A stretch of DNA of 64,000 nucleotides from Artocarpus heterophyllus (lineage: Eukaryota > Streptophyta > Magnoliopsida > Rosales > Moraceae): NCBI GenBank assembly GCA_025403435.1, contig CM046341.1, positions 7,401,219 through 7,465,218 of the forward strand. Direction: 5' to 3'. Position 1 is the stretch's first letter; every line of letters begins with the position of its first letter. Positions 21,080 to 56,716 of the stretch are shown here, one piece after another. The notes beneath the pieces were generated by a model. That model did not search any database. It saw only the letters and a list, made by a program, of their open reading frames with translations, and was not told the DNA's origin. A program made the translations under genes and the position numbers.

Positions 21080-21178
21080 ACCAATAAACTTCACACCCAC
21101 AACTTTGAGACCACAAAGAAAAATTAGAAAAAAAAAATAATTAACCATCAAAAGATTACTTTAGTACTAGCTGCTTAC

Positions 21179-21694
21179 ATGGAAGACCCTAACAGAAGGG
21201 ATCAACACCAAGACCAACAAGAGAAAGATAGTCAAGAGGGAACCGTGAGATATCGCGGCGTTCGGAGGCGGCCATGGGGGAAGTTTGCGGCAGAGATAAG
21301 AGATCCTTCGCGGCAAGGGGCTCGGCTATGGCTTGGCACGTTTGACACAGCCGAGGAAGCGGCTAGGGCCTATGATAGGGCTGCTTTTAACTTTAGAGGT
21401 CATCTTGCTATACTTAACTTCCCTAATGAGTACTATTCTAGGGTCCTGGGGTCTCCTCCTTATCCTCCTCACATATCATTCTCTACTTCTGCTTCTGCTT
21501 CTGCTTCTAGTTCGGGTTCTGCGTCTTCTGCTCGCCGTTTGCCGAGGGGTTTCGAGCGGGGAGACTCGTCCAGATCCTCACAGCCGCCACCGGCGGCTGC
21601 AGCTGCGCAGGAGAGGCAGGTTTTTGAGATTGAGTGCTTGGATGACAGGGTTTTGGAGGAGCTTCTTGGTTCCGAAAAGGAGAAGAAAAAGTGA
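21179..21694 (+). CDS. AP2/ERF transcription factor, group IX (ERF095/096/098-like), 171 aa
   Basis: An intronless gene for a small nuclear transcription factor of the ethylene response factor family. One AP2/ERF DNA-binding domain spans about residues 24-83. It begins [18 protein letters not shown] and continues through [19 protein letters not shown] to the end of the fold. The Ala and Asp that mark ERF rather than DREB proteins are present ([20 protein letters not shown]), so GCC-box binding is expected. A Ser-rich linker (100-135) leads to the C-terminal EDLL motif, [16 protein letters not shown] (148-163), a strong activation motif known from Arabidopsis ERF98/TDR1 and relatives. The first Met fits the family's short N-terminus. 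Relatives act in jasmonate/ethylene, pathogen and salt responses; a role here is inferred only from family. The paralogue at 56192-56602 lies 35 kb away, facing it. Confidence 0.97.
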
Positions 21695-34433: not shown

Positions 34434-36034
34434 CATTACTACAAAATAAAGAATAGCAGACAATGAGAGAATTTAATAGAGGATGGATTTTGTTTAAACC
34501 GTCTTTTACGAGATTATGGAATTGCCGCGAGTGGTTTAGCGAAATTGTGTGAAAATTATAGAGGATGGGTTTCACACGAATTGTCTTCTCTTGTGGGTAC
34601 ACCATCCTCTTTTATGAAAAAAAATATAAGACCTTTTCTAAAACCATCTTCTATTGTTGTTTCACAAATGATATCTTATCGAATAAAAAATACGATTCAA
34701 ATGAATCTAAAAAAAAAGAGTATGATTCGAATAAAAAAACAAAAAATATAGATAATAAGATAGGTTTTATCTAAAACACCATTACAATGACCCTTAAAAA
34801 ACAAAACATGATTACAATGACAAAAATGAAAATTAAAAATACAATTGATTTTCATTCTAATTCATGTAAATCTTAATCTCCATCTCATACTCAAACACAT
34901 TATCTATAGCCCTATTAAAGTCACTATTTTTTGCGTTTCATAGTGCTTATTTATAATTAATCAACAAAATCATTTCCTTTCATCTTTTTCTCTTTCAAAC
35001 TCACTCACTCTCCATCCCTTTGTAGTTTGCTTGTCCCTAGCTTTCTCTAGTAGTCGAAGACTCCTTTGCGTGAAGAAACACTGGACAAAAATAATTACGA
35101 GTTAATTCAGTTAACCATGTGCAGGTTAGATTTTCTCTTCCTTTTTTATTTTTTTTAACTTTGTTTTTATAGACTTTTGAGTTAATATTTGTTCAATAGT
35201 TTATGCTCTGTTTTTCACTTTTAAACAATCATTTCTTGCTTTTATTCTTTTCTATGACGTAGCAATTTTGTAGCTATACATGAAACAATGTTGTTTCAAA
35301 TATATTTTTGTTTGTTGTGGTTGTTTATTCAAAACTGTAAACTATATATAAAAAGATTTTCATTCATAAGTAGACAGTAGTGGACTTTTCTCTAATTTGT
35401 AAAATAAAAATAATAGCTTTCTCACATTTTCCTACTTCTAAAAAGCCGTGTATTTTTATTTCTTTTTATAAAGAATCAACCGTACATGTTTATGAGAAAT
35501 ATTTTTTGAAGTATGCAATTTAGACCCTTTAATCTTTTTTTAAAATAGTAGTTTGATTTTTTTTTTTAAAGAATGTTTGATATTCAAACGTTTTTGAAGA
35601 GTCCCCTTGAAAAACGTGTTTGAAGAATGCTCTTTTTTTTTTTTGGCAAATTTATGCTGCACGTTATATTTCATGTTAGATTTCCAGTTTGCAAGGTTTA
35701 AATAAACGATAATCTTCTATTTTTTAATACAAAATTAGAATTTTTTTAAGAAATTAAATTTGAAATAATTCATATACTACTTTTCTTTAGCAAATCAACA
35801 CTTATTTGAGCATATGTTGTACTATTCCCATTTTATAGTAAATTCATTTTTGCTCATGAACATGAATACCAAATTTGACCAACATAGAAATAACTAGTAT
35901 TTTTCTTTGTTATTATACTTTTGCATGAAATTATTAAAATAATATATTAAATATTTTCAGGTAATTTGCGAGTTATCAAATAAAATATACTTTATAGAAA
36001 ATGGATGAATACAAGAAGAACAACAACTGACTAA

Positions 36035-37901
36035 GATGAATGGGTTAATTTTTTTCTTGACTTTACTGAGAAGAATGCTGGAGATTGTGATACTATAAGA
36101 TGTCCTTGTGTGAAGTGTTGTAATCTAGAGATAAATACTCAAGAAGAGGTAAGAGGGCAAATATATTTTAATGGAATTGATCCAAGTTATACAAAATGGG
36201 TATGGCATGGTGAAAATTTACCTACTTTTTCATCAACTAGAGAATTTGGAATTCAAAGAGGATTTTGTTGATGAGGATACTGAGGACAATGTGATAGACA
36301 TGATAATTGATGCAGAGGAAAGATTTGCTAACCATCTAGAACAATTTCAGAGTTTGTTAGAGGATGCCAACACACCACTGTATGGAGTCTACCAAGTTCA
36401 CCAACTTGTCAGCATTGGTGAGATTGTGAAATTTAAAAGCTGGGGAGGATGGACTAATACGAGTTTTACGTTGCTTTTGCAACTCATAAGTGAGATGCTA
36501 CCAGATGATAACAAACCTCCTGCATCTATATACGAGGCAAAACAATATTATGTTCTTTGGGAGTGGAATACAAGAAAATGCATACATGGTCTAATGATTG
36601 CATTCTTTATCGAAAGGGGTATGCAGATGAATCTATTTGCCCTACATGCAAGGTGTCAAGATGGAAGACTGGAAAAGGCTCTTCGAGTGAGAAAACTTTG
36701 GTTGAGAAAACTGGAGTTCCTGTAAAAGTATTGTGGTATTTACCAGTGGAACCATGATTAAAGCGGTTATTTTGAAATGCATCTCATGTTAAGAGTTTGA
36801 CATGGCATGCTCGTAGAGGATATTCTGATGGTTTACTTAGACATCCGGCCCTAAATTCAGTAAACAAGAAAGGAATATTCATTTTGGACTAGCTGCTGAT
36901 AGGATCAATCCACATAGCAACTTTAATAGCAGGTATAGCTGTTGGCCAGTTATTTTAGTTATTGACTACTTTCCCTACTCGTTGTGCATGAAACGAAGAT
37001 TTATGATGCTGACATTGTTAATTTTGAGGTCAAAACAACCAGGGAATGATATTGATATGTACTTAGCCCTATTGATTCATGAATTAAAGATGTTGTGGGA
37101 AACTAGAGTAGAAGTTCTAGATGTTCATAAAGGGAATACTTTTATGGTTTGAGCTATGTTGCTATGGGCAGTTAATGATTTTCCGCGTATGGAAATCTTT
37201 CTAGATACAGTGTAAAAGGTAAAATAGCCTGCCCATATTGTGGAGAAAAAACATGTTCTTCATGATTGACAAATGGAAAAAAGACAATATATATTGGTCA
37301 TAGAAACTTGTTGGATAAGGACCATTCATATAAAAAAAACAAAAGCAAAAAAAGACAATTTAATGGAAAACCAAAACATGGAATGCCTCCACGCGCGTTA
37401 AGTGGTGAAGAAGTATTTCAAAAGGTTCAGAATTTGAAAGATCATGACACCTGATGGACTATGGAAGAAAAGGTCAATTTTCTGATCTTCTATATTAGAA
37501 AACACTTTTTATATGCCACAGTCTTGATGTTATGGATATTGAAAAGAACGTTTGTGATGCTTTAATTGAGACATTACTTGATATCCTTGGGGAAACAAAG
37601 GATGGGATCAAAGCCCGCTTGTACCTTAAAGAAATGAAAATTAGAGAGCAATTGGCTCCTACTTTGTGAGGAAACTGCACGTTTCTACCTCCAGTAAAAT
37701 ATACGTTATCAACGAATGAGAATGAGAAAAGAGACTTTTGTATATAGTTTCAGAAGTTAAACTGCCTGGTTACTCTTCTAACATAAGGAGTTTAGTTTCC
37801 ATGAAAAATTTGAAGCTTATTGGCTTAAAATCCCATGATTGCCATGTTTTCATGCAACAAATACTACATGTTGCTATTCACTCTGTCTTATCAAAACAAA
37901 A
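36035..37901 (+). pseudogene. TNP2-type CACTA transposase, N-terminal and central parts
   Basis: The catalytic transposase of the element, in pieces. At 36035-36260 lies the transposase-associated domain with WVNFFLDFTEK, RCPCVKCCN and YTKWVWHGE. At about 36490-36760 lies the TNP2 core, with DDNKPPASIYEAK and, in another frame, SNDCILYRKGYADESICPTC and ending in VLWYLPVEP. At about 36880-37420 follow LAADRINPHSNF, CWPVILVIDYFPYSLCMK, GNDIDMYLALLIHELK and YIGHRNLLDKDH. Stops (for example TAA 36032, TGA in FMV*AM) and frameshifts break it throughout. The reading reaches GLKSHDCHVFMQQ at about 37820-37862, where the LTR retrotransposon cuts it. Confidence 0.9.
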
Positions 37902-37906
37902 GGAAG
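37902..37906. repeat. Target-site duplication GGAAG (left)
   Basis: GGAAG immediately before the left LTR; the same pentamer follows the right LTR at 46113-46117. This is the 5-bp duplication made by a retroviral-type integrase. Confidence 0.95.
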
Positions 37907-39879
37907 TGTAACGCCCCTATATGGGGGTTAACAGTTTTTAATGAGATAAAATAAAAATAAATAATAAAAGTAAAACCTTAAAAATAAAATTTGCCCGGGA
38001 CTTAAATGAAAACTCTCAACTCAAAAATAAAAATATAAACGATAAATAAACCACAGTTTTAATGTAGCACCTTAAATTTAATAATATAAACTGTTGTCAT
38101 CATCATTTTAACCCTCAACACATTGTAATACAGTCACAGAAAGTAACAATTGATGCTTACATTATCATGAAGAACATTCTCAACAATTGAAGCAGTCCCA
38201 ATGTAATATAGCTACATCACTTCCTCAACTATATTTCTCGTAGCCACCTCACACTTATTGAGTCCTGAAAAGATAAAAATATAAGGGTATGAGCAACACT
38301 ATGCTCAGTAGAGAAAGCCATTACTCACCTTTAGGTTTTTATCATTACCACATTAAAACCTGCATGGTTAGTAAGTCACATCATATTCCAGATTATGAGG
38401 TTTATTATGATCACATCTTATGGATACCGTAGTTAATCATTACCAAGTGTCATAATTACACATTTATACAAATATTACCAATCATCATTGTTCCTAGGTA
38501 TCCATGTTAAATTGAGTATCACTCAACTCATCGAAACTCAAATGGGCGCACTTGATCACCCTATAAACATTCCAAGGGTGTTCCGGTGAGGGGACATCAA
38601 GCCCCGAGTCCTCACCAAATCGATTCCTGTACAGTGTGTTCTGGGACTTTCAACCCAAGGAAGCGTCATCACCTTCCCCCTATTTTACCTTTTAGGGTAT
38701 TCATGCCCAAGGACGTAATCGCCGCCCTCTTCATGTCTCACCATTTCTCTATATTAAATCATTATTAATAGAGTCAGTTTTCCTAACCATGCTTCTCAAT
38801 TTATAACATGTGTCAATTCATTATGTTCCTCGCCGTACAATACAAGACGAGTCCATGTCATAGTTTCATATGTGATAATCATATAATATCAGTTCAACAT
38901 AGATATATATATATTGCGGCAAAACAATCAATTTTAATTCTATAAAAACCTCACAAAAGATGAGTAATAGAATCCCTACCTTTCAAGCTTATCAACAGTC
39001 TCTTAATCCTGGAATCAATTAACGTTAGCTCCATACTCCCTTGATCCTAAGGCGTGCATAAGGACAATTAAAACTAAAGCACAACATACAACTACATTCA
39101 TAAAATTTATTTTAATTTAATCTTAGAATTTCAAGAAATAACCACTGCCCATAGAGGTATTATAAAGTTTAACAATATAAATTTTCTGTCTAGGGCATAT
39201 ACACTTAGACTTCATACATATGCTCCAAAATAGCAACAAACATATACTTAGGTTTAAGAACGTAAATTTGAATAATCCTTTAGTATAAAAGAAAATTTAT
39301 AAATGAAAGACTAAATTTGTTCATAAGATTCTAACCTCGGATTATGGTTAGTTGGAAGCTTGAAATGGCTTCAAAACAGGTTCCTTTACTTCGGTATGAC
39401 TGAAATTCTTGCTCAAATGGAGGTGATGGTGGCTGATTTTTATGGCTGCCTTGAAGAAGTTCTCTAAGTATTTTGCTTCAGCAAAGAAATGAGAAGAAGA
39501 GTGTGGGAACCGTGGAAGAAAAAGGAAGAAAAGATGAAGTCTTTGAAAAGAAGTGATAGAAACAATTATAGAGGAGACATGTTGAAGCATGTCACGGAGG
39601 AAATAAAGAAAATGAGGGTCAAGAGTAGTTGGAAAAGATATCCTTATGTCTCATCTAAAGACTTTAACACACATAATGCCAATATGACATTTTTGAGATT
39701 TATTAGAAGTTCTAAGGCTTTTTAGTAATCATACTAAATAAATATAGGAGAATTTTAGAAAATTTAAAAATAGATAAAAATAAATATTATAAAATAAATT
39801 TAAATGAAGCAATTTTTTTTATACATTAAAAATTAATTTAATTACCTCAATACCCGTTAGAAGAATAACAGGTGTCACA
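37907..39879 (-). repeat. 3' LTR (left copy, 1973 bp)
   Basis: The plus strand reads TGTAACGCCCCTATATGGGG to GGTGTCACA. By eye it matches the right copy except for one base near the inner end (AACAGG against AACGGG) and one T fewer in the poly-T run at about 39813-39820. Three short ORFs in it are identical in both LTRs and are not thought to be genes. Confidence 0.97.
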
Positions 39880-39893
39880 GCTCTACCCCCCTT
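39880..39893 (-). other. Polypurine tract
   Basis: The minus strand reads AAGGGGGGTAGAGC directly against the LTR, the plus-strand DNA primer position of Ty3/gypsy elements. It fixes the element's orientation. Confidence 0.9.
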
Positions 39894-40833
39894 AAAGAAA
39901 TTTCGTCCTCGAAATTTCAATTCTAGCAATACTAGTAAAAATTATGATTCCACTATGATTCCAATTCTGAGTCTAAACCGTTAATGTTGTTTGTCTTCCA
40001 AATTTAAGTTATCGTATCTCCACTTATTTACTTGCATAATAAATCTTACTCCTAAATCCCTCAATGAGAGTATTTCTGACAAGTTTCAACTTATAACACC
40101 GTATAATAGTCTAAGAATCTGATCAGGCCTACATATTGACCATATCATGATTCCAGTCCTTCATTGTCCATGGACTGTGATTTACAATCACATTTAAGGA
40201 GATTGCCAGAGAAATTTTATATACTTCATCTTTAGGTTCCTTTTCCTTTTTGAGTAAGGAAAAGTCAAATATATTTGATTTCATACCTCAACTAATAAAC
40301 TAAAACATAATCATAAAACATATATCACAAACACTTATATTCAAAACCATACATTAAACTTATTCATAGAGATATTAAACGGAATCTCTGGTTGCAAACA
40401 TACCCGACATATTTTTCATTAAACAGCTATCCTCATGACACAAACATTCAATCCAAATAATATACTCATATTTCATATGGAATATCCCCATAACTGACTT
40501 TGGTACTTCCACATAATATTAACAGAATATTACACATTACAAACATGATACGGATACGTTTCGAGAGTACAAGGCACTCCGTATACCAGCTATCCATATC
40601 ATGCATGCTTAGAGGATACAAAAACATCGATAAACAAAAGATCGGACCTTAAGAAGGATGCGTTTCGAGAGCATCAAGTACTCCTTATCCAACCATCCCG
40701 GCATTAGGCTCAATGAATCTAAAAGATTGAACAACAACGTACCACAAGAAACACAGAATACAAGGCAAACGGTTATTCGTAACACACGAAATACGGACAC
40801 ACATGCCTACATGCCAAAGATAAAACAAAAAGA
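39894..40833 (-). other. 3' untranslated region of the retrotransposon
   Basis: Non-coding sequence between the LOG ORF and the purine tract. It contains an imperfect direct repeat of about 50 bp (40555-40605 and 40660-40710, sharing CGTTTCGAGAG and ACTCC-TAT). GGACGAAATTTC next to the purine tract is typical of this part of chromoviruses. Confidence 0.6.
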
Positions 40834-41523
40834 TTACAGATGGAGATTCAAATCAATTGGCCGCTCCCGGCTTTCCCTTTCCCATTCAAGCTTGGATGTT
40901 GCAGTGTCGGATTCTGGATGTATGATTTGCATTTTATCTATCAATTCCTCAGCTGTTGAAGCAGTGACAAAGATTTGTCTCTCCGATTCTGTAGTGATGT
41001 TTTCTTCCACAGCGTAATCTAGAAATTTCAAAAGACCGTCATAAAAACCCTTTACGTTCAGCAGTCCCAAAGGTTTGGAATAAAAGCCCAACAATTGCCC
41101 ACAAGCAACTATAAATATTTCCTCAAGAGTACCTAGACCACCAGGTAATGCTATAAAAGCATCAGAATTATAGATTATGTCTTTAAAATTTTTAGGGATA
41201 CTCCTGACTCCTTCTCCCTTACCTATGGCTTCCTTACAAAGGTTTCCTTCAACTGGAATATGAGGCCAAATTCTTACATCAGTAGCGTCACTAGACCTAG
41301 CTGCTAGTGCCATATTTACCATCATTTTTATACTACCACCCCCATAGATTATGTTAATCTTCTTGCGTGCTAGGACTTGCCCTAAGTGATTTGCAGCTTC
41401 TAAATAAGCTTTATCTTTTCCAAGGCTGGAACCACAAAAGACACAGACATTCTTTATTTTCTTCGTGGACTGGGAGGTAGACATATTTGGTTTATAGAAG
41501 TGGTTGCTTAATGTCTGCTCCAC
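40834..41523 (-). CDS. LOG-family protein carried by the retrotransposon, 229 aa
   Basis: Family: LONELY GUY enzymes, cytosolic/nuclear phosphoribohydrolases that release active cytokinin bases from cytokinin riboside 5'-monophosphates. Visible motifs are VCVFCGSS (26-33), the nucleotide-binding turn YGGGS (60-64), DAFIALPGGLGTLEE (121-135) with the family PGGxGTxxE signature, and PLGLLNVKGFYDGLLKFLD (151-169). Length fits plant LOGs (about 210-230). Odd points: the usual GLMG after GGGS is KMMV; the MHxRK segment, which carries a catalytic Arg, reads SIPKNF (108-113), so that Arg is lost; and the C-terminus ends in LNLHL (225-229), matching the LxLxL EAR repression motif. The ORF has no intron, whereas plant LOG genes are usually split, which suggests capture through RNA. 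A second Met at residue 14 could be the true start. Activity is uncertain. Confidence 0.9.
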   Translation of the reverse strand: MEQTLSNHFYKPNMSTSQSTKKIKNVCVFCGSSLGKDKAYLEAANHLGQVLARKKINIIYGGGSIKMMVNMALAARSSDATDVRIWPHIPVEGNLCKEAIGKGEGVRSIPKNFKDIIYNSDAFIALPGGLGTLEEIFIVACGQLLGFYSKPLGLLNVKGFYDGLLKFLDYAVEENITTESERQIFVTASTAEELIDKMQIIHPESDTATSKLEWERESRERPIDLNLHL

Positions 41524-42127
41524 TTAGACTTCGGGTTCTACATGAGTTTTTAAAGATGAGAAATATACAAAAAGGGCTAAAGAGATAGACAAGTAGGTAA
41601 TGAAAAGGTAATCCAAAGATTTAAACAAAATCTTGTGCGGATAAGAAAGTAAGATAAGGTGATTGATAGTTTACAGAAAATTTGATTCACTTTTTGAAAA
41701 AGATTAGACTCTAATTGTATAACTTTTGACAATTGAGAACAATTCGACAGAAGACCCTCATGACACAACTGTAGACTTTTTGACAAATATACACCAAGTC
41801 TAGAAATTTAATATAAACGACAAATACTGTAGAACTTTTGAAATTTGAGACACAAATCTTGAAATATCTGGATAAGCTTTTCAAAATTCAAACATATTAC
41901 TGTACCGTATGTGACGTGTCTGATAAGATAATATATTTTATTATATATATATTTAAGAAAATCATAAATTAAATAAGATATTAACACTTACTGTATCAAT
42001 CTAATAATCACAATTATTTCAAACACAAAAGCAAATATTTTGAGTAAAAGAAAAACACAAACTGTTGAACATCAGCTAAAACTGCTTCAAATAAGTAAAG
42101 ACTAAATAACCTTTATAGAGCGATGAC
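41524..42127 (-). other. Spacer between the two retrotransposon ORFs
   Basis: About 600 bp, AT-rich, without a recognisable domain. It is long enough that the LOG ORF would need its own transcript, splicing, or reinitiation to be translated. Confidence 0.5.
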
Positions 42128-42649
42128 TTATTCCCCATCCAGTTTTCTTATGGCTTGGCAAACAGGATCTAAAAATACCATATTCCTGAGGCGTTGTCTT
42201 TCTGTATAAAATTTAGGCCAGAGTTTAAAAATAGCTCCTTGAACATATCCACTAGGGTGACCGTGGAGAGGAGGATGGATGCTATCCAAGTTCTCCTTTG
42301 AAAGTCCATCCCTACAAAACCTTATTTTATCCTCTCTATTCGTAGACATATAACCAGGTGAAGTACATTTACCGTTACAATTTTGTCTTCCACATTTGTT
42401 ACAAGTGACCACGATGGCACGAGCTCTTCTTTTCATTGCACTACGACTGGTACCTGTTCCTGGTAAACCGACATCTTGACTAAAGTCACTCGGACGGATT
42501 TTCCCCTCTATTAACATTCTCACATCACAAGGGATGCCAAAACGCATAAGAATCCACAACCGAGTAATTCTAGCCTTGTATTTCTTTCTAAGAATCTTTT
42601 GGGAGAGTGATGGGAAATACTTTCTCAGGTGTTGGTACTTTGGGTCCAT
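42128..42649 (-). CDS. Unrecognised 173-aa protein with a four-Cys motif, first ORF of the retrotransposon
   Basis: An intact ORF on the element's sense strand, about 1.5 kb downstream of the primer binding site, in the position gag would occupy. The N-terminal half is basic (KKYKAR, AMKRRARA) and contains RLWILMRFGIP. A cysteine cluster CNKCGRQNCNGKC spans residues 83-95 (C-x2-C-x4-C-x3-C), similar in size to the gag zinc knuckle (C-x2-C-x4-H-x4-C) but with Cys in place of His. The C-terminal part has HPPLHGHPSGYVQGAIFKLW. I do not recognise the family. It could be a captured host gene, like the LOG next to it, or a diverged nucleic-acid-binding protein that helps mobilise the element. Confidence 0.75.
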   Translation of the reverse strand: MDPKYQHLRKYFPSLSQKILRKKYKARITRLWILMRFGIPCDVRMLIEGKIRPSDFSQDVGLPGTGTSRSAMKRRARAIVVTCNKCGRQNCNGKCTSPGYMSTNREDKIRFCRDGLSKENLDSIHPPLHGHPSGYVQGAIFKLWPKFYTERQRLRNMVFLDPVCQAIRKLDGE

Positions 42650-44119
42650 GATGAGATGAAAGAAGAGTAAATAGAAAGGAAAAATTAAGATAGTAAATTG
42701 CAGAATCCTAGAATTCCTTCTTCTTTTAGAGAAAAAGAAGAATTTTTAATGAAAAAGAAGAGGATTTGCGATTTAGAGAGAAAATAACAAATTAAGAGAG
42801 AAAAAGTGAACTCGGAGAAATAAGCTCCTATGCACAGTAAACGTATTTGTAAACATTAATTAAACCACTGTTTATGACACGTATAGAGACCACGTGGGAG
42901 AGACAGTGTGAATCAAACTGATTTAGGATTTAAACTAGGCCCAAATGTTCTTAGTTGAAAATGGTCAAGTTGTTTCGGGCCTTAACACATTTAGAACGAG
43001 TTAAATAACAAACATAAAATTGAAAACCAATTTGTATAAATCTTAAACCCAATTTAAAGCCCACTATAGATAAAGTTAACTATGAACAACAAATCTAATT
43101 TAACGACAACAAGGATCTTCCTGAATGATATTTAAAATCATTTCATAACAACATAATCTTCCAGCAACTCAAATAATTTTGTTTTAATCAAAACCTTATT
43201 GAACAATGCATACACCCATATGTTATTCCTAATACTCAACATCTATCAATGGATTCATCATCATTACTACCAAGGGTTTAGAATGCGACTAACCTTGAAA
43301 TCAATACGATTTACGTCTTTCAACGTAGACCATATCAATGAACAAAGACACTTGATGTTACTACTTAAGAACATCTATAATCCCCACAATTCTACTCATA
43401 CAATATATAATTTCCTCATATAACAAAACCTTAGGTAACCAAAAGATTCACTGATACACTTAAATACAATGTACGTAACGAAATATTTCAATTTTGAGAT
43501 TCATGCATTCTAGACTTTACACAGTCTCAACAGACCAAAAGTCTAACATTTATCTCTCTCAAGATTCAATACCATGATTCCCAACTTATATCATATTCCT
43601 CAAATATATAGAACTTTTAAGAAAAGACATTGACACTTATGTGCTCCATCGAATCCACACATAATCATTACTTAGGTTTGAATCAATTACGAAAAATTTG
43701 GCATATCTATGTCAAACTTTAAAATCAATAAATCAAGCCTTATATTTCTTATTATTTTTCACGAGACAAAAGGCTTTTAAATCCTCGTATCTATACGAAT
43801 TTCTCATCGTTTATACGAATTAGATATGCTTATAGATCCAAATATTATACGAATCTCTCATAAGCATTCTACTTATAAACTCATTCCATATAATTATCAT
43901 TCCCTTATAACTATTAATACTTTCCTTCTATATAATTATTGTACTCATATAACTATTGATATTTTCATTCTATGGCCTTTCCATGTTACATCCTTCTAGA
44001 CTGTATAAATCAATGTGAAGGTTCATTTTGATGATGACAATAAAAATTTAGCTTCAAAACCATCTCAGAAATATATTTTTTTAAAGTGGTGCTACATTCC
44101 CTAGGTTAACCGAACCTAG
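42650..44119 (-). other. 5' leader of the retrotransposon
   Basis: A non-coding leader of about 1.5 kb between the primer binding site and the first ORF. It contains short direct repeats (TATACGAAT with CTCAT, 43793-43860; CATATAATTAT/CATATAACTATTGAT, 43888-43965). Packaging and dimerisation signals would be expected here but cannot be identified from one copy. Confidence 0.5.
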
Positions 44120-44131
44120 GCTCTGATACCA
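44120..44131 (-). other. tRNA-iMet primer binding site
   Basis: The minus strand reads TGGTATCAGAGC, complementary to the 3' end of initiator Met tRNA, seven nucleotides inside the 5' LTR. Confidence 0.95.
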
Positions 44132-44138
44132 AAAATTC

Positions 44139-46112
44139 TGTAACGCCCCTATATGGGGGTTAACAGTTTTTAATGAGATAAAATAAAAATAAATAATAAA
44201 AGTAAAACCTTAAAAATAAAATTTGCCCGGGACTTAAATGAAAACTCTCAACTCAAAAATAAAAATATAAACGATAAATAAACCACAGTTTTAATGTAGC
44301 ACCTTAAATTTAATAATATAAACTGTTGTCATCATCATTTTAACCCTCAACACATTGTAATACAGTCACAGAAAGTAACAATTGATGCTTACATTATCAT
44401 GAAGAACATTCTCAACAATTGAAGCAGTCCCAATGTAATATAGCTACATCACTTCCTCAACTATATTTCTCGTAGCCACCTCACACTTATTGAGTCCTGA
44501 AAAGATAAAAATATAAGGGTATGAGCAACACTATGCTCAGTAGAGAAAGCCATTACTCACCTTTAGGTTTTTATCATTACCACATTAAAACCTGCATGGT
44601 TAGTAAGTCACATCATATTCCAGATTATGAGGTTTATTATGATCACATCTTATGGATACCGTAGTTAATCATTACCAAGTGTCATAATTACACATTTATA
44701 CAAATATTACCAATCATCATTGTTCCTAGGTATCCATGTTAAATTGAGTATCACTCAACTCATCGAAACTCAAATGGGCGCACTTGATCACCCTATAAAC
44801 ATTCCAAGGGTGTTCCGGTGAGGGGACATCAAGCCCCGAGTCCTCACCAAATCGATTCCTGTACAGTGTGTTCTGGGACTTTCAACCCAAGGAAGCGTCA
44901 TCACCTTCCCCCTATTTTACCTTTTAGGGTATTCATGCCCAAGGACGTAATCGCCGCCCTCTTCATGTCTCACCATTTCTCTATATTAAATCATTATTAA
45001 TAGAGTCAGTTTTCCTAACCATGCTTCTCAATTTATAACATGTGTCAATTCATTATGTTCCTCGCCGTACAATACAAGACGAGTCCATGTCATAGTTTCA
45101 TATGTGATAATCATATAATATCAGTTCAACATAGATATATATATATTGCGGCAAAACAATCAATTTTAATTCTATAAAAACCTCACAAAAGATGAGTAAT
45201 AGAATCCCTACCTTTCAAGCTTATCAACAGTCTCTTAATCCTGGAATCAATTAACGTTAGCTCCATACTCCCTTGATCCTAAGGCGTGCATAAGGACAAT
45301 TAAAACTAAAGCACAACATACAACTACATTCATAAAATTTATTTTAATTTAATCTTAGAATTTCAAGAAATAACCACTGCCCATAGAGGTATTATAAAGT
45401 TTAACAATATAAATTTTCTGTCTAGGGCATATACACTTAGACTTCATACATATGCTCCAAAATAGCAACAAACATATACTTAGGTTTAAGAACGTAAATT
45501 TGAATAATCCTTTAGTATAAAAGAAAATTTATAAATGAAAGACTAAATTTGTTCATAAGATTCTAACCTCGGATTATGGTTAGTTGGAAGCTTGAAATGG
45601 CTTCAAAACAGGTTCCTTTACTTCGGTATGACTGAAATTCTTGCTCAAATGGAGGTGATGGTGGCTGATTTTTATGGCTGCCTTGAAGAAGTTCTCTAAG
45701 TATTTTGCTTCAGCAAAGAAATGAGAAGAAGAGTGTGGGAACCGTGGAAGAAAAAGGAAGAAAAGATGAAGTCTTTGAAAAGAAGTGATAGAAACAATTA
45801 TAGAGGAGACATGTTGAAGCATGTCACGGAGGAAATAAAGAAAATGAGGGTCAAGAGTAGTTGGAAAAGATATCCTTATGTCTCATCTAAAGACTTTAAC
45901 ACACATAATGCCAATATGACATTTTTGAGATTTATTAGAAGTTCTAAGGCTTTTTAGTAATCATACTAAATAAATATAGGAGAATTTTAGAAAATTTAAA
46001 AATAGATAAAAATAAATATTATAAAATAAATTTAAATGAAGCAATTTTTTTTTATACATTAAAAATTAATTTAATTACCTCAATACCCGTTAGAAGAATA
46101 ACGGGTGTCACA
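44139..46112 (-). repeat. 5' LTR (right copy, 1974 bp)
   Basis: Near-identical to the left LTR, with one substitution and one homopolymer length difference noticed. In sense orientation it starts TGTGACACCCG and ends GGGGCGTTACA. Transcription should start within this copy and run leftward. Confidence 0.97.
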
Positions 46113-46117
46113 GGAAG
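46113..46117. repeat. Target-site duplication GGAAG (right)
   Basis: A perfect match to 37902-37906. Confidence 0.95.
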
Positions 46118-46560
46118 TCAGTATGCAATTTCTAAAATTTATTATTTTTTCAAGGCTATTGTGCAAGAGTGGTGGATCCACCAAGGTTAGATTCATTACA
46201 ATCAGAGCTGGTGAAGACATTGTGCTTATTGAAAAGTTCTTTCCAACATCATTTTTTGATATTGTGATGCATTTAACAGTTCATTTAGTTCGAGAAGCCA
46301 AATTGTGTGGGCCAGTTTACTTTAGTGGGATTTATCCCTTTGAAAGGTACATGAAAATATTAAAAGGTCATGTGAAAAATCGGAATAGACCCGAAGGTTG
46401 TATAGTAGAGAGTTATATCAATGAAGAAGCAGTTGAATTTTGCTCTAAATACTTGACCAATACTGAACCTATTGGAATCCCAAAGAGAAAACATTCCTTG
46501 AATTTGAGCGGGAAAGGTATTTCTACAGGTGTTTCTTTTGAAGTGGATTGTGAGGCGTAG
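46118..46560 (+). pseudogene. TNP2 C-terminal region, DUF4218
   Basis: Continues the CACTA transposase after the insertion. The frame after GGAAG (VSMQFLKF) follows that before it (LSKQKE) once the retrotransposon is removed. It contains the DUF4218 pattern: FFPTSFFDIVMHLTVHL, CGPVYFSGIYPFERYMK and PEGCIVESYINEEAVEFC. A TAG stop lies at 46558. The function of DUF4218 is unknown, but it regularly follows TNP2 in plant CACTA elements. Confidence 0.9.
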
Positions 46561-46674
46561 CAACAACCACATCTCTACATTTTGAAAAATTCACACGAGG
46601 TTGTTTCATACATCATTGAACATTTGAATCACTTAAAAGAAAATAATCCAAAGAAATCTAAAGTTGAGAAATAG

Positions 46675-47390
46675 TTGCAAAATGAGCACAATCAAACTTT
46701 TGGTAGTTGGTTAGAAAATCATATAAGTGCTAAAATGGAAGATTTAAATCATGGTGTACCTGATGACTTGAAATTGTTAGCACATGGTCCTTCAACGACA
46801 GCTACAAAATACAGGTCATACTCTATCAATGGTTGTTGCTTCTACACACGTGCAAGAGATACGAAACATCCTGTACGAAATAGTGGTGTTAGTTTGATGG
46901 CAGAAGCAATGCACATAGCGAGCGCAAAGGACAAAAACCCGATGTACGGGATGTGCTATTATGGAGTTATTGAAGAAATATGGGAAGTAGTTATTGTTCT
47001 CTTGAAGGGCCTCTATTTAAGTGTAAAAGGGTTGACAATGGTGCTGTGATAGTTGATGAAGGGCTTATATGTGTGGATTTGCAGAGGCAGGGCTACAAAG
47101 ATGAGCCTTTTATCTTGGCATTACAAGCTAAGCAAGTGTTCTACATAGACCATCCATATAAGAAGAATCTAAAGGTTGTAATGCCAACGAAATCAAAAGT
47201 CTTCCAAGAAGAGATCAATGAGCTAGAGGGTCACTGCCATGAGGTCCAATCTGTTAGTGCAGGTTTGCTACCAGTTGAGGATGTTGATAAGTTGGATGCA
47301 CATATGTTTAGTGAAACAAATTTAATTCCAAAAGAAGGTGAGTGGATATGTGCTGAAAAATCAAAGAGAAGGAAAAACAAATATCTAAGT
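46675..47390 (+). pseudogene. TNP2 C-terminal region, DUF4216
   Basis: NEHNQTFGSWLENHI, NHGVPDDLKLLAHGPS and YSINGCCFYTRARD lead into the DUF4216 fold. It continues in a second frame after about 46985 with QGYKDEPFILALQAKQVFY and an IDHPYKKNLKVVMPTK tail. The frame change between the two overlapping ORFs (46675-47049 and 46980-47489) is a frameshift that disables the gene. The tail EWICAEKSKRRK is followed by a splice-donor-like site and T-rich DNA. Confidence 0.85.
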
Positions 47391-56191: not shown

Positions 56192-56602
56192 TCAACCTTT
56201 TTTGATGTTCTTCTCTTCATCCTCGAGAAGTTCCTCCAAAAGCTTATCATCCAAGTACTCAAACTCAATGACTTGTTTTCCATGCTGACTACTACCTCTG
56301 CCTTCCCCAGAGCCTCGCATTGATGAGGACGAAGAGGCAGCGGATTTAGAAGACGACGAAGAATACCCCAACCCCGCAGTCAAGGGGTATTCGTGGGGGA
56401 AATTGAGAATGGCAAGGGGGCCTCGCATGGCATAGGCAGCTCGGTCGTAGGCACGGGCGGCCTCCTCTGCCGTGCCAAACGTGCCGAGCCACACTCGTGC
56501 TCCGTGTCGTGTCGAGTCCCGAATCTCCGCCGCGAATTTTCCCCACGGCCTCTTCCTCACTCCCCGGTACCAAACCCCTCCAGAGTCCTTCTCTTGATCC
56601 AT
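56192..56602 (-). CDS. AP2/ERF transcription factor, group IX (ERF096-like), 136 aa
   Basis: A second intronless small ERF gene. The AP2 domain occupies about residues 12-70 ([37 protein letters not shown], then [12 protein letters not shown]) with ERF-type Ala/Asp residues. A Ser-rich linker (81-103) follows, then the EDLL activation motif, [20 protein letters not shown] (111-130). It is close in plan to Arabidopsis ERF095/096/098, small activators in ethylene/jasmonate, ABA and stress signalling. Compared with the 171-residue paralogue at 21179, it has a shorter N-terminus and linker. A TATAAAAT box lies about 120 bp upstream and two G-boxes about 230-265 bp upstream. Related ERFs are also clustered in Arabidopsis, so a local duplication is likely. 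Confidence 0.97.
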
Positions 56603-56716
56603 ATAATTTTTCTCTTTTTTTTAAATTCTTTCTTTTGTTTTTTTTTGCGTGTGTGTTTGGGTAATTTAACTAAATTTGCATGGCTTGTTTGTGTACAACG
56701 AAGCGGTGGGGTTTGG

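Follow-up and report, generated by a model that had tools for sequence, protein, structure and literature searches.

The window, i.e., the whole stretch of 64,000 nucleotides analysed from Artocarpus heterophyllus, contains an LTR retrotransposon that encodes a nucleic-acid-binding-protein relative (ORF1, NABP) and a LONELY GUY-like protein (ORF2, LOG) and is inserted in a decayed CACTA transposon (Table 1). The element has near-identical direct LTRs with TG...CA ends, a short target-site duplication and a PBS and PPT in the correct places. In agreement with the preliminary description, which had called it a young LTR element with a GGAAG duplication, a PBS and a PPT, the two LTRs (approximately 1.97 kb) differ by one substitution and one indel. 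A six-frame scan of the interior against Pfam gave no gag-pol match at E ≤ 1, which confirms the absence of pol domains also reported there, and the sense strand of the leader contained neither an ATG-started ORF of at least 45 aa nor a gag match. The PBS presumably pairs with the 3' terminus of initiator tRNA-Met, and the PPT may resemble that of the chromovirus (Tekay/Del) lineage. According to the available text of PMC6317226, a tRNA-Met PBS fits most chromoviruses and also Ty1/copia and is absent from non-chromovirus Ty3/gypsy elements.

Table 1. Features of the LTR element in the Artocarpus heterophyllus window.
Feature	Position	Strand	Remarks
Whole LTR element	37907-46112	-	Sense on the minus strand
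Target-site duplication, left copy	37902..37906		GGAAG
3' LTR	37907..39879	-	1973 bp
Polypurine tract (PPT)	39880..39902	-	AAGGGGGG; adjoins 3' LTR; read from sequence
3' noncoding part	39903..40833	-	LOG stop to PPT; contains 33-nt imperfect repeat
ORF2 (LOG-like, LONELY GUY)	40834..41484	-	216 aa; intronless
Spacer between ORF1 and ORF2	41485..42127	-	643 nt, noncoding; order and spacing conserved across the family
ORF1 (NABP)	42128..42649	-	173 aa; Carla_C4/Viral_NABP plant relative
Leader	42650..44119	-	About 1.47 kb
Primer binding site (PBS)	44120..44131	-	tRNA-Met-type; 7 nt from 5' LTR; read from sequence
5' LTR	44139..46112	-	1974 bp, TG...CA; 99.9% identity with 3' LTR
Target-site duplication, right copy	46113..46117		GGAAG

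Copy number and coding constraint in the family

The window element belongs to a family without gag-pol that is very large and has been multiplying recently. Genome-wide, 36-mer patterns with up to two mismatches identified 3,172 NABP and 3,156 LOG sites, and exact LTR-PBS junctions numbered 2,104, with reversed-pattern controls of 0 in each case. Among exact sites on contig C1, LOG was located 1,248–1,260 nt (approximately 1.25 kb) downstream of NABP at 60 of 67 NABP sites, and NABP and/or LOG was present at 53 of the 55 exact LTR-PBS junctions, so that any helper with this junction would be expected to be rare; no autonomous partner was found from exact junctions genome-wide or from junction contents on contig C1. 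Median LTR divergence was 0.0004 (range 0–0.0096) for the 17 copies in which both LTRs were located, out of 20 taken from the LOG match list, and perfect target-site duplications were noted in 13 of these 17, sampling for an intact LOG or an intact NABP being biased toward young copies. Among the genomic matches to LOG, the best 150 all had an open reading frame and the same protein sequence, and the frame was also open in all 8 copies picked via NABP. Recurrence of LOG across the family, on which the preliminary description depended, is thereby established, and a one-off passenger is ruled out by the numbers of NABP and LOG sites together with at least 150 identical LOG copies. One LOG cluster and one NABP cluster were each on a contig of length 8,723, a suggestive observation with a jittered-length chance of 7%.

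Constraint was clear for NABP and, in the case of LOG, was evident from identity of the protein across diverged copies. For NABP, pN/pS was 0.08 relative to the window (19 copies) and 0.27–0.39 by segregating sites, and distinct variants over 30 rows comprised 20 synonymous and 25 nonsynonymous changes (p 0.008). NABP was intact in 25 of these rows and broken in 5, and since four of the latter had a common stop at codon 138, copies with truncated NABP also multiplied. The noncoding DNA of 29 copies with identical LOG differed from that of the window by 1.35–2.58%, a divergence at which the mean chance of an unchanged LOG protein under neutrality is 0.0002 per copy. The corresponding number of identical copies expected among 3,156 was about 0.6 to 3.5 (from mean and maximum chances) or, with lower synonymous divergence, about 10. 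Distinct LOG variants in the 8 NABP-picked copies (8 synonymous, 15 nonsynonymous; p 0.29) showed no departure from neutrality. Gene conversion is another way in which proteins can be kept alike.

The NABP and LOG-like proteins

The identity of ORF1, a 173-aa frame left unidentified in the preliminary description, is a bigger find than LOG. As judged from its sequence, ORF1 is a plant relative of the cysteine-rich/nucleic-acid-binding proteins (CRP/NABP) of flexiviruses. Its own Pfam score (16.3 bits) was under the cut-off of 23, so that placement in this family rests on its relatives. A profile search gave 856 proteins at E ≤ 0.1, 120 of which were listed, and named NABP relatives among the matches listed were on chromosomes of Populus, Xanthoceras, Acer, Rhamnella, Orobanche and Hibiscus. 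Of 16 aligned members, 14 were matched by Carla_C4 and 13 by Viral_NABP at the same threshold (lowest E-values 3.5e-7 and 1.9e-7, respectively). In ORF1 a basic stretch precedes a cysteine cluster, and in an alignment of 59 NABP sequences K73, R75, A76, C83 and C95 were conserved at ≥90% while C86 and C91 were invariant. Viral CRPs, as described in the accessible parts of PMC8742542, have an NLS adjoining a zinc finger; roles in silencing suppression or nuclear transcription are reported for viral members alone, there and in those of PMC12172455. In chrysanthemum virus B, according to the latter text, the protein related to NABP is a transcription factor and induces hyperplasia. Structural searches with ORF1 gave nothing significant, either by sequence against PDB or by fold against BFVD (9 matches), although the top three of the latter, at non-significant E-values of 0.24, 0.42 and 4.6, were betaflexivirus NABP, CRP or suppressor proteins. 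Three scans of IMG/VR with NABP turned up no relative. An origin of ORF1 in the window element by viral integration was rejected on the basis of named relatives on plant chromosomes, one of them adjoining pol, and none in IMG/VR. A literature search by titles and abstracts, with subscription journals mostly outside its range, found no account of plant LTR elements with NABP genes.

The relative adjoining pol is at locus L001, which encodes RNase H and integrase, presumably of Athila/OTA type, and, 0.2 kb downstream of pol, an NABP that clears Viral_NABP with 30.3 bits. A sense ORF after pol, i.e., in the accessory-ORF position of Athila/OTA elements, was thus seen for the NABP homolog of L001, the window element being without pol. 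Of three pol copies in the Artocarpus heterophyllus genome that are related to the L001 pol, two showed a short match to the NABP tail at the equivalent position; these matches, of 15 and 11 residues, came from two near-alike copies and are apparent remnants. The third own-genome pol copy, which belongs to another family, gave no NABP-tail match. A scan of IMG/VR with the L001 pol gave no hits. NABP may derive from the accessory position after pol of another retrotransposon lineage.

Membership of ORF2 in the LOG family, as first proposed, was borne out by TIGR00730 (130.4 bits, cut-off 96.35), by an SLOG/Rossmann fold together with sequence-family assignment, and by retention of the PGGxGTxxE motif. 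At the column of the catalytic Arg (Arg99 of the C. glutamicum enzyme), ORF2 has Asn while 112 of the 119 other homologs listed, as counted by eye from the alignment, have Arg; the adjacent Met and Lys have changed as well. In the available text of PMC4979012, Arg99 is a proposed catalytic residue of C. glutamicum LOG, and alanine substitutions in the active site almost eliminate LOG activity. ORF2 also departs from the consensus at 12 of 50 near-invariant columns, more than any other of 41 sequences, has the longest terminal branch in a quick tree, and is 37–47% identical to 40 aligned homologs and at most 49% identical, by local alignments, to any relative among those listed. The NCBI equivalog model NF058542 scored ORF2 at 85.6 bits, below its cut-off of 300, but this model fits plant LOG-like proteins poorly, since plant relatives P0065 (117.1) and P0020 (127.3) were below the cut-off as well. 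A scan of IMG/VR with LOG gave 17 matches, the best segments of which were 25–62% identical. That a functional cytokinin enzyme was recently captured, as the preliminary description envisaged, is unsupported because the Arg is lost and identity to listed relatives does not exceed 49%. In the comparison with listed homologs, recent capture of a host gene was rejected on the 37–47% identity and the long terminal branch, and an ordinary active enzyme is disfavoured by the lost Arg.

Related elements and viral genes

LTR elements with LOG/YgdH domains were reportedly described by Steinbauerova et al. in 2011. Published examples of LOG-like genes in plant LTR elements come from Citrus and Populus trichocarpa, where, in the available text of PMC9289625, the LOG/YgdH domain is within Ty3/gypsy-type elements that carry pol, since they were found through reverse transcriptase. 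A LOG-family domain inside an LTR element is common to these and the window element. Compared with these elements, for which the comparison covers LOG and pol, the window element lacks gag-pol, has lost the catalytic Arg and pairs LOG with NABP. Ty3/gypsy elements of orchids, described in the same text, carry an extra ORF for an enzyme of a type shared with flexiviruses (an AlkB-type m6A demethylase) but differ in the protein concerned, in keeping gag-pol and in that the enzyme is active in vitro. Athila/OTA elements have, in the accessible parts of PMC7264820, a third sense ORF after pol (an env-like aORF), the position occupied by NABP in L001; the window element differs from them in being without pol and in its tRNA-Met-type PBS. 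Flexivirus-related sequence in nuclear DNA is also known from endogenised RNA viruses in plants, the single plus-strand case in the available text of the PMC3136472 survey being a betaflexivirus replicase-like sequence in cucumber, with no CRP/NABP seen there. The CRP/NABP of carlaviruses, allexiviruses and vitiviruses (PF01623, PF05515) and plant NABP have in common the basic stretch, the cysteine cluster and family-level Pfam matches, whereas plant NABP belongs to LTR elements of nuclear genomes, is mostly about 180 aa and has N- and C-terminal parts conserved within its own family. LARD and TR-GAG elements are non-autonomous plant elements with LTRs and cis signals but without pol that are thought to be mobilised in trans; unlike these, the window element has a coding interior with two conserved non-gag ORFs.

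Explanations of the family and their significance

The reading that we favour, at a probability of roughly 0.6, is a large, young family without gag-pol that carries cis signals together with a two-protein accessory module, NABP and a LOG with an altered active site, the functions of both being predicted from homology. The element would supply LTRs, PBS, PPT and the module, i.e., a basic cysteine-cluster protein and a LOG-like protein, and since it is without gag-pol, the Gag and Pol proteins would be supplied in trans by another LTR element. NABP would act like its viral relatives, most likely by weakening RNA silencing directed at the element or by altering host transcription, while LOG would bind a nucleotide or cytokinin precursor, or pair with host LOG, and would not catalyse the ordinary LOG reaction. 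These roles are suggested by sequence relationships.

That a gag-pol-less derivative of a two-ORF parent instead spread passively on good cis signals, its ORFs intact through youth alone, is unlikely but agrees with the very low LTR divergence in 17 copies, with the spread of copies that share a truncated NABP and with the lack of significant constraint among LOG variants of the 8 NABP-picked copies. Divergence of noncoding DNA between copies was, however, far greater than LTR divergence within copies, which indicates that several source lineages existed, and yet at least 150 copies have an identical LOG protein where at most about 10 were expected; low pN/pS of NABP by either measure is likewise contrary to passive spread. 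An active, cytokinin-releasing LOG, by which expression of the element would raise local cytokinin and enlarge the pool of dividing cells with new copies, accords with retention of the fold and PGGxGTxxE, with protein identity in the best 150 copies and with the hyperplasia induced by the chrysanthemum virus B relative in the accessible parts of PMC12172455, but is made improbable by the Arg to Asn change, by changes in the adjoining Met and Lys and by the exceptional number of near-invariant columns broken. An ordinary host LOG between two LTRs by chance, the alternative to capture named in the preliminary description, agrees with family assignment alone; it is refuted by copies with duplications of their own and, given the target-site duplications, CACTA flanks, intronless ORF and thousands of copies, can practically be dismissed. 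More tentatively, and with the odds against it, flexivirus-type CRP/NABP could be an old and widespread family of silencing-suppressor/transcription-factor genes in plant LTR retrotransposons, exchanged with RNA viruses or sharing descent with them, NABP and the remodelled LOG being here a module by which an element without gag-pol promotes its own spread through host silencing and cytokinin or cell-division pathways.

The usual view of non-autonomous retrotransposons is that cis signals are all they need. With about 3,000 copies that lack gag-pol but keep two accessory proteins, this family makes the role of such proteins for a genomic parasite directly testable. On the LOG side, a hormone-enzyme family has been remodelled within a mobile element. 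Surveys that require extra ORFs of at least 250 codons, as in the available text of PMC6317226, would overlook NABP, which links pathogenicity proteins of plant RNA viruses to a reservoir in nuclear genomes that in at least one case adjoins a retrotransposon pol. These findings suggest that a genomic parasite may retain virus-style helper genes.

Structure of the element and its site of insertion

Judging by its genes and transposons, the window (contig C15, 7,401,219-7,465,218) is plant nuclear DNA. The preliminary description of a very young LTR retrotransposon carrying a LOG (LONELY GUY-like) gene in place of gag-pol was borne out by LTR comparison and a six-frame domain scan. The only differences between the two LTRs were a single substitution and a T gained or lost in a T-run, GGAAG was present on either side of the element as a target-site duplication, and no gag or pol domain was found at E <= 1 in the six frames of the interior, which contained two intact sense ORFs. 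In the sense direction, the 5' LTR was followed by a 7-nt spacer, TGGTATCAGAGC, which we take to be a PBS matching initiator tRNA-Met, a ~1.5-kb leader, ORF1 (NABP, 173 aa), a gap of 643 nt, ORF2 (LOG, 216 aa), a noncoding stretch of about 0.95 kb, a PPT and the 3' LTR. Both ORFs were longer than any sense ORF in 1,000 sequences generated by an order-1 Markov model, the longest of which reached 127 aa. According to a passage in PMC6317226, tRNA-Met primes most chromoviruses and Ty1/copia lineages and not non-chromoviruses; the vector may be of either lineage, chromovirus or Ty1/copia. A 33-nt repeat pair (79% identity, 104 nt apart) in the noncoding DNA 3' of LOG could form small hairpins.

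That a normal host LOG gene had been framed by LTRs by chance, an alternative raised in the same description, was ruled out because the insertion interrupts a decayed CACTA element, with Transpos_assoc and a frameshifted Transposase_21 to its left, and DUF4218 and DUF4216 to its right.

Coordinates of the LTR element and other features in the window
Feature	Position	Strand	Basis
LTR element, complete	37907-46112	minus	LTRs, duplication, PBS and PPT
LTRs	37907-39879 and 44139-46112	minus	sequence comparison
Decayed CACTA/En-Spm transposon, split by LTR element	35996-37433 and 46113-47168		domain matches
33-nt repeat pair	40552-40584 and 40656-40688		
AP2/ERF-like ORF	21128-21694	plus	judged by eye
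AP2/ERF-like ORF	56192-56620	minus	judged by eye
Ty1/copia-like pol pieces	208-1728	plus	judged by eye
Inverted pair, ~600 bp, 77% identity	16530-17108 and 25606-26196		

Copies in the host genome and constraint on the two ORFs

Searches of the host's own 985-Mb assembly with 36-mers (two mismatches or fewer) indicated 3,172 NABP and 3,156 LOG sites, and the exact LTR-PBS junction occurred 2,104 times, reversed-pattern controls giving 0 for each of the three. Protein searches gave 6,120 first-look candidates for LOG and 5,822 for NABP; the best 150 scored were all 100% identical and open for LOG and all identical for NABP. The further copies sought by LTR and LOG thus number in the thousands, and the refuting condition named in that description, LOG missing from them or present only in decayed form, did not hold. 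Pairing of the ORFs was evident from exact sites on one contig (C1), where LOG lay 1,248-1,260 nt downstream at 60 of 67 NABP sites, NABP lay upstream at 60 of 64 LOG sites, and NABP and/or LOG accompanied 53 of 55 PBS junctions (neither at 2).

Twenty copies were fetched from the LOG list, and in 17 of them both LTRs were located via the window LTR ends, with a median within-copy divergence of 0.0004 (range 0-0.0096) and perfect 5-bp duplications in 13 of the 17. Several copies had an LTR start unlike that of the window or an LTR about 0.4 kb longer. The first ~835 bp of the LTR (element sense) in L044, L051 and L052 were unlike the window LTR, the rest and the ORFs matching, and are possibly swapped U3 modules. 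Another region (L039; C9:16,537,152-16,564,376) contained five LOG copies on the same strand at intervals of about 6.6 kb, a pattern that fits a tandem LTR-interior-LTR array of the family.

Among 19 copies chosen by LOG, NABP had a pN of 0.0033 and a pS of 0.041 (ratio 0.08), with a stop in 3 and an indel in 1. In a set of 30 rows that included the window and left out an empty row, distinct NABP variants comprised 20 synonymous and 25 nonsynonymous changes (p 0.008 vs neutrality, kappa 4), and NABP was intact in 25 rows. Four of the 30 (L033, L036, L055 and L060) had a common stop at NABP codon 138 and are a truncated-NABP sublineage that still multiplied.

LOG was open in all 8 copies chosen by NABP, with 16 synonymous and 23 nonsynonymous differences from the window (ratio 0.41) and 8 synonymous and 15 nonsynonymous distinct variants (p 0.29). 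A stronger point for constraint than these counts is the identity of LOG despite noncoding divergence, which was 1.35-2.58% between 29 copies and the window. The neutral chance of an unchanged LOG at such divergence is 0.0002 on average and at most 0.0011 per copy so that, by simple arithmetic, 0.6 to 3.5 identical LOG would be expected in 3,156 copies (about 10 if synonymous divergence, 0.011, is used instead), as opposed to at least 150 observed. Gene conversion or the sampling of young copies could account for part of this likeness.

Relatives of ORF1 and their position beside pol

Window ORF1 alone matched Viral_NABP and Carla_C4 of Pfam with scores under the cut-offs. A profile built from its 15 direct homologs matched 856 proteins at E <= 0.1, and organism-labelled relatives among the 120 listed were from chromosomes of Populus, Xanthoceras, Acer, Rhamnella, Orobanche and Hibiscus. 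Matches at E <= 0.1 were noted for 14 of 16 aligned family members with Carla_C4 (best 3.5e-7) and for 13 of 16 with Viral_NABP (best 1.9e-7). Four cysteines preceded by a basic stretch were conserved across a 59-sequence alignment, and window ORF1 retained 26 of 27 near-invariant columns. The predicted fold was of moderate quality (pLDDT 73, pTM 0.38), and its top three matches in BFVD, to NABP, CRP or suppressor proteins of betaflexiviruses, were not significant. The sequence comparisons place ORF1 among plant relatives of the nucleic-acid-binding proteins of flexiviruses. Passages in PMC12172455 and PMC8742542 describe viral NABP/CRP members as RNA-silencing suppressors and pathogenicity determinants and the chrysanthemum virus B member as a transcription factor that induces hyperplasia.

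An intact pol-then-NABP arrangement was found in one contig only, L001 (DAIEQH010000041.1; 3,330 bp), which is catalogued in a bacterial MAG (Candidatus Nomurabacteria) and is evidently misplaced plant LTR-element DNA; its presence there is apparently contamination of the reference genome collection. In L001, RNase H and integrase domains were followed, after about 0.2 kb containing a splice-acceptor-like tract, by an NABP ORF 51% identical to window ORF1 and a PPT-like tract (both tracts judged by eye). Its pol, which gave no Pfam match to a chromodomain, presumably resembles that of Athila/OTA elements. The host genome also contained relatives of this pol, of which 86 were scored (highest identity 69%), and three copies were inspected for NABP over 1.2 kb downstream. 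Two near-alike copies matched the NABP C-terminus only, over 15 residues in one (E 8e-5) and 11 in the other (E 1e-3), about 0.13 kb upstream of a PPT-like tract; no NABP match was seen in that interval of the third copy, which belongs to another family. Most simply, NABP would be an ancient accessory ORF of L001-type elements, lost in those host copies and retained here by a different vector. Plant elements with sense ORFs past pol are described in a section of PMC7264820. A second host pol group, 61-62% to L001, had many 1,788-aa open frames with near-identical scores and is probably a further young element family.

Prior reports and proposed working of the element

LOGL4-like ORFs in Athila-like elements were reportedly described earlier by Steinbauerova et al. 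A passage in PMC9289625 shows that Citrus and Populus LTR elements with LOG/YgdH domains have already been published. No published report of NABP in plant LTR elements was found in a literature search; a survey like that of PMC6317226 would miss NABP because extra ORFs, as defined in a passage there, are called from 250 codons up. A survey of endogenised RNA-virus sequences in plants, PMC3136472, reports a single plus-strand example, a cucumber sequence resembling a betaflexivirus replicase.

The window element belongs to a large, young family without gag-pol, the two paired ORFs of which are at least partly constrained. As a whole, the results are best explained, at a probability of about 0.58, by a gag-pol-less family that is helped in trans and keeps NABP and LOG as an accessory module. 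Gag-pol proteins would be supplied in trans, NABP would act in silencing or transcription, and LOG would act by binding as opposed to the ordinary LOG reaction. The real puzzle is the selection that maintains proteins in an element dependent on trans help, the likeliest answer being that the proteins would act within the same cell and favour copies made there.
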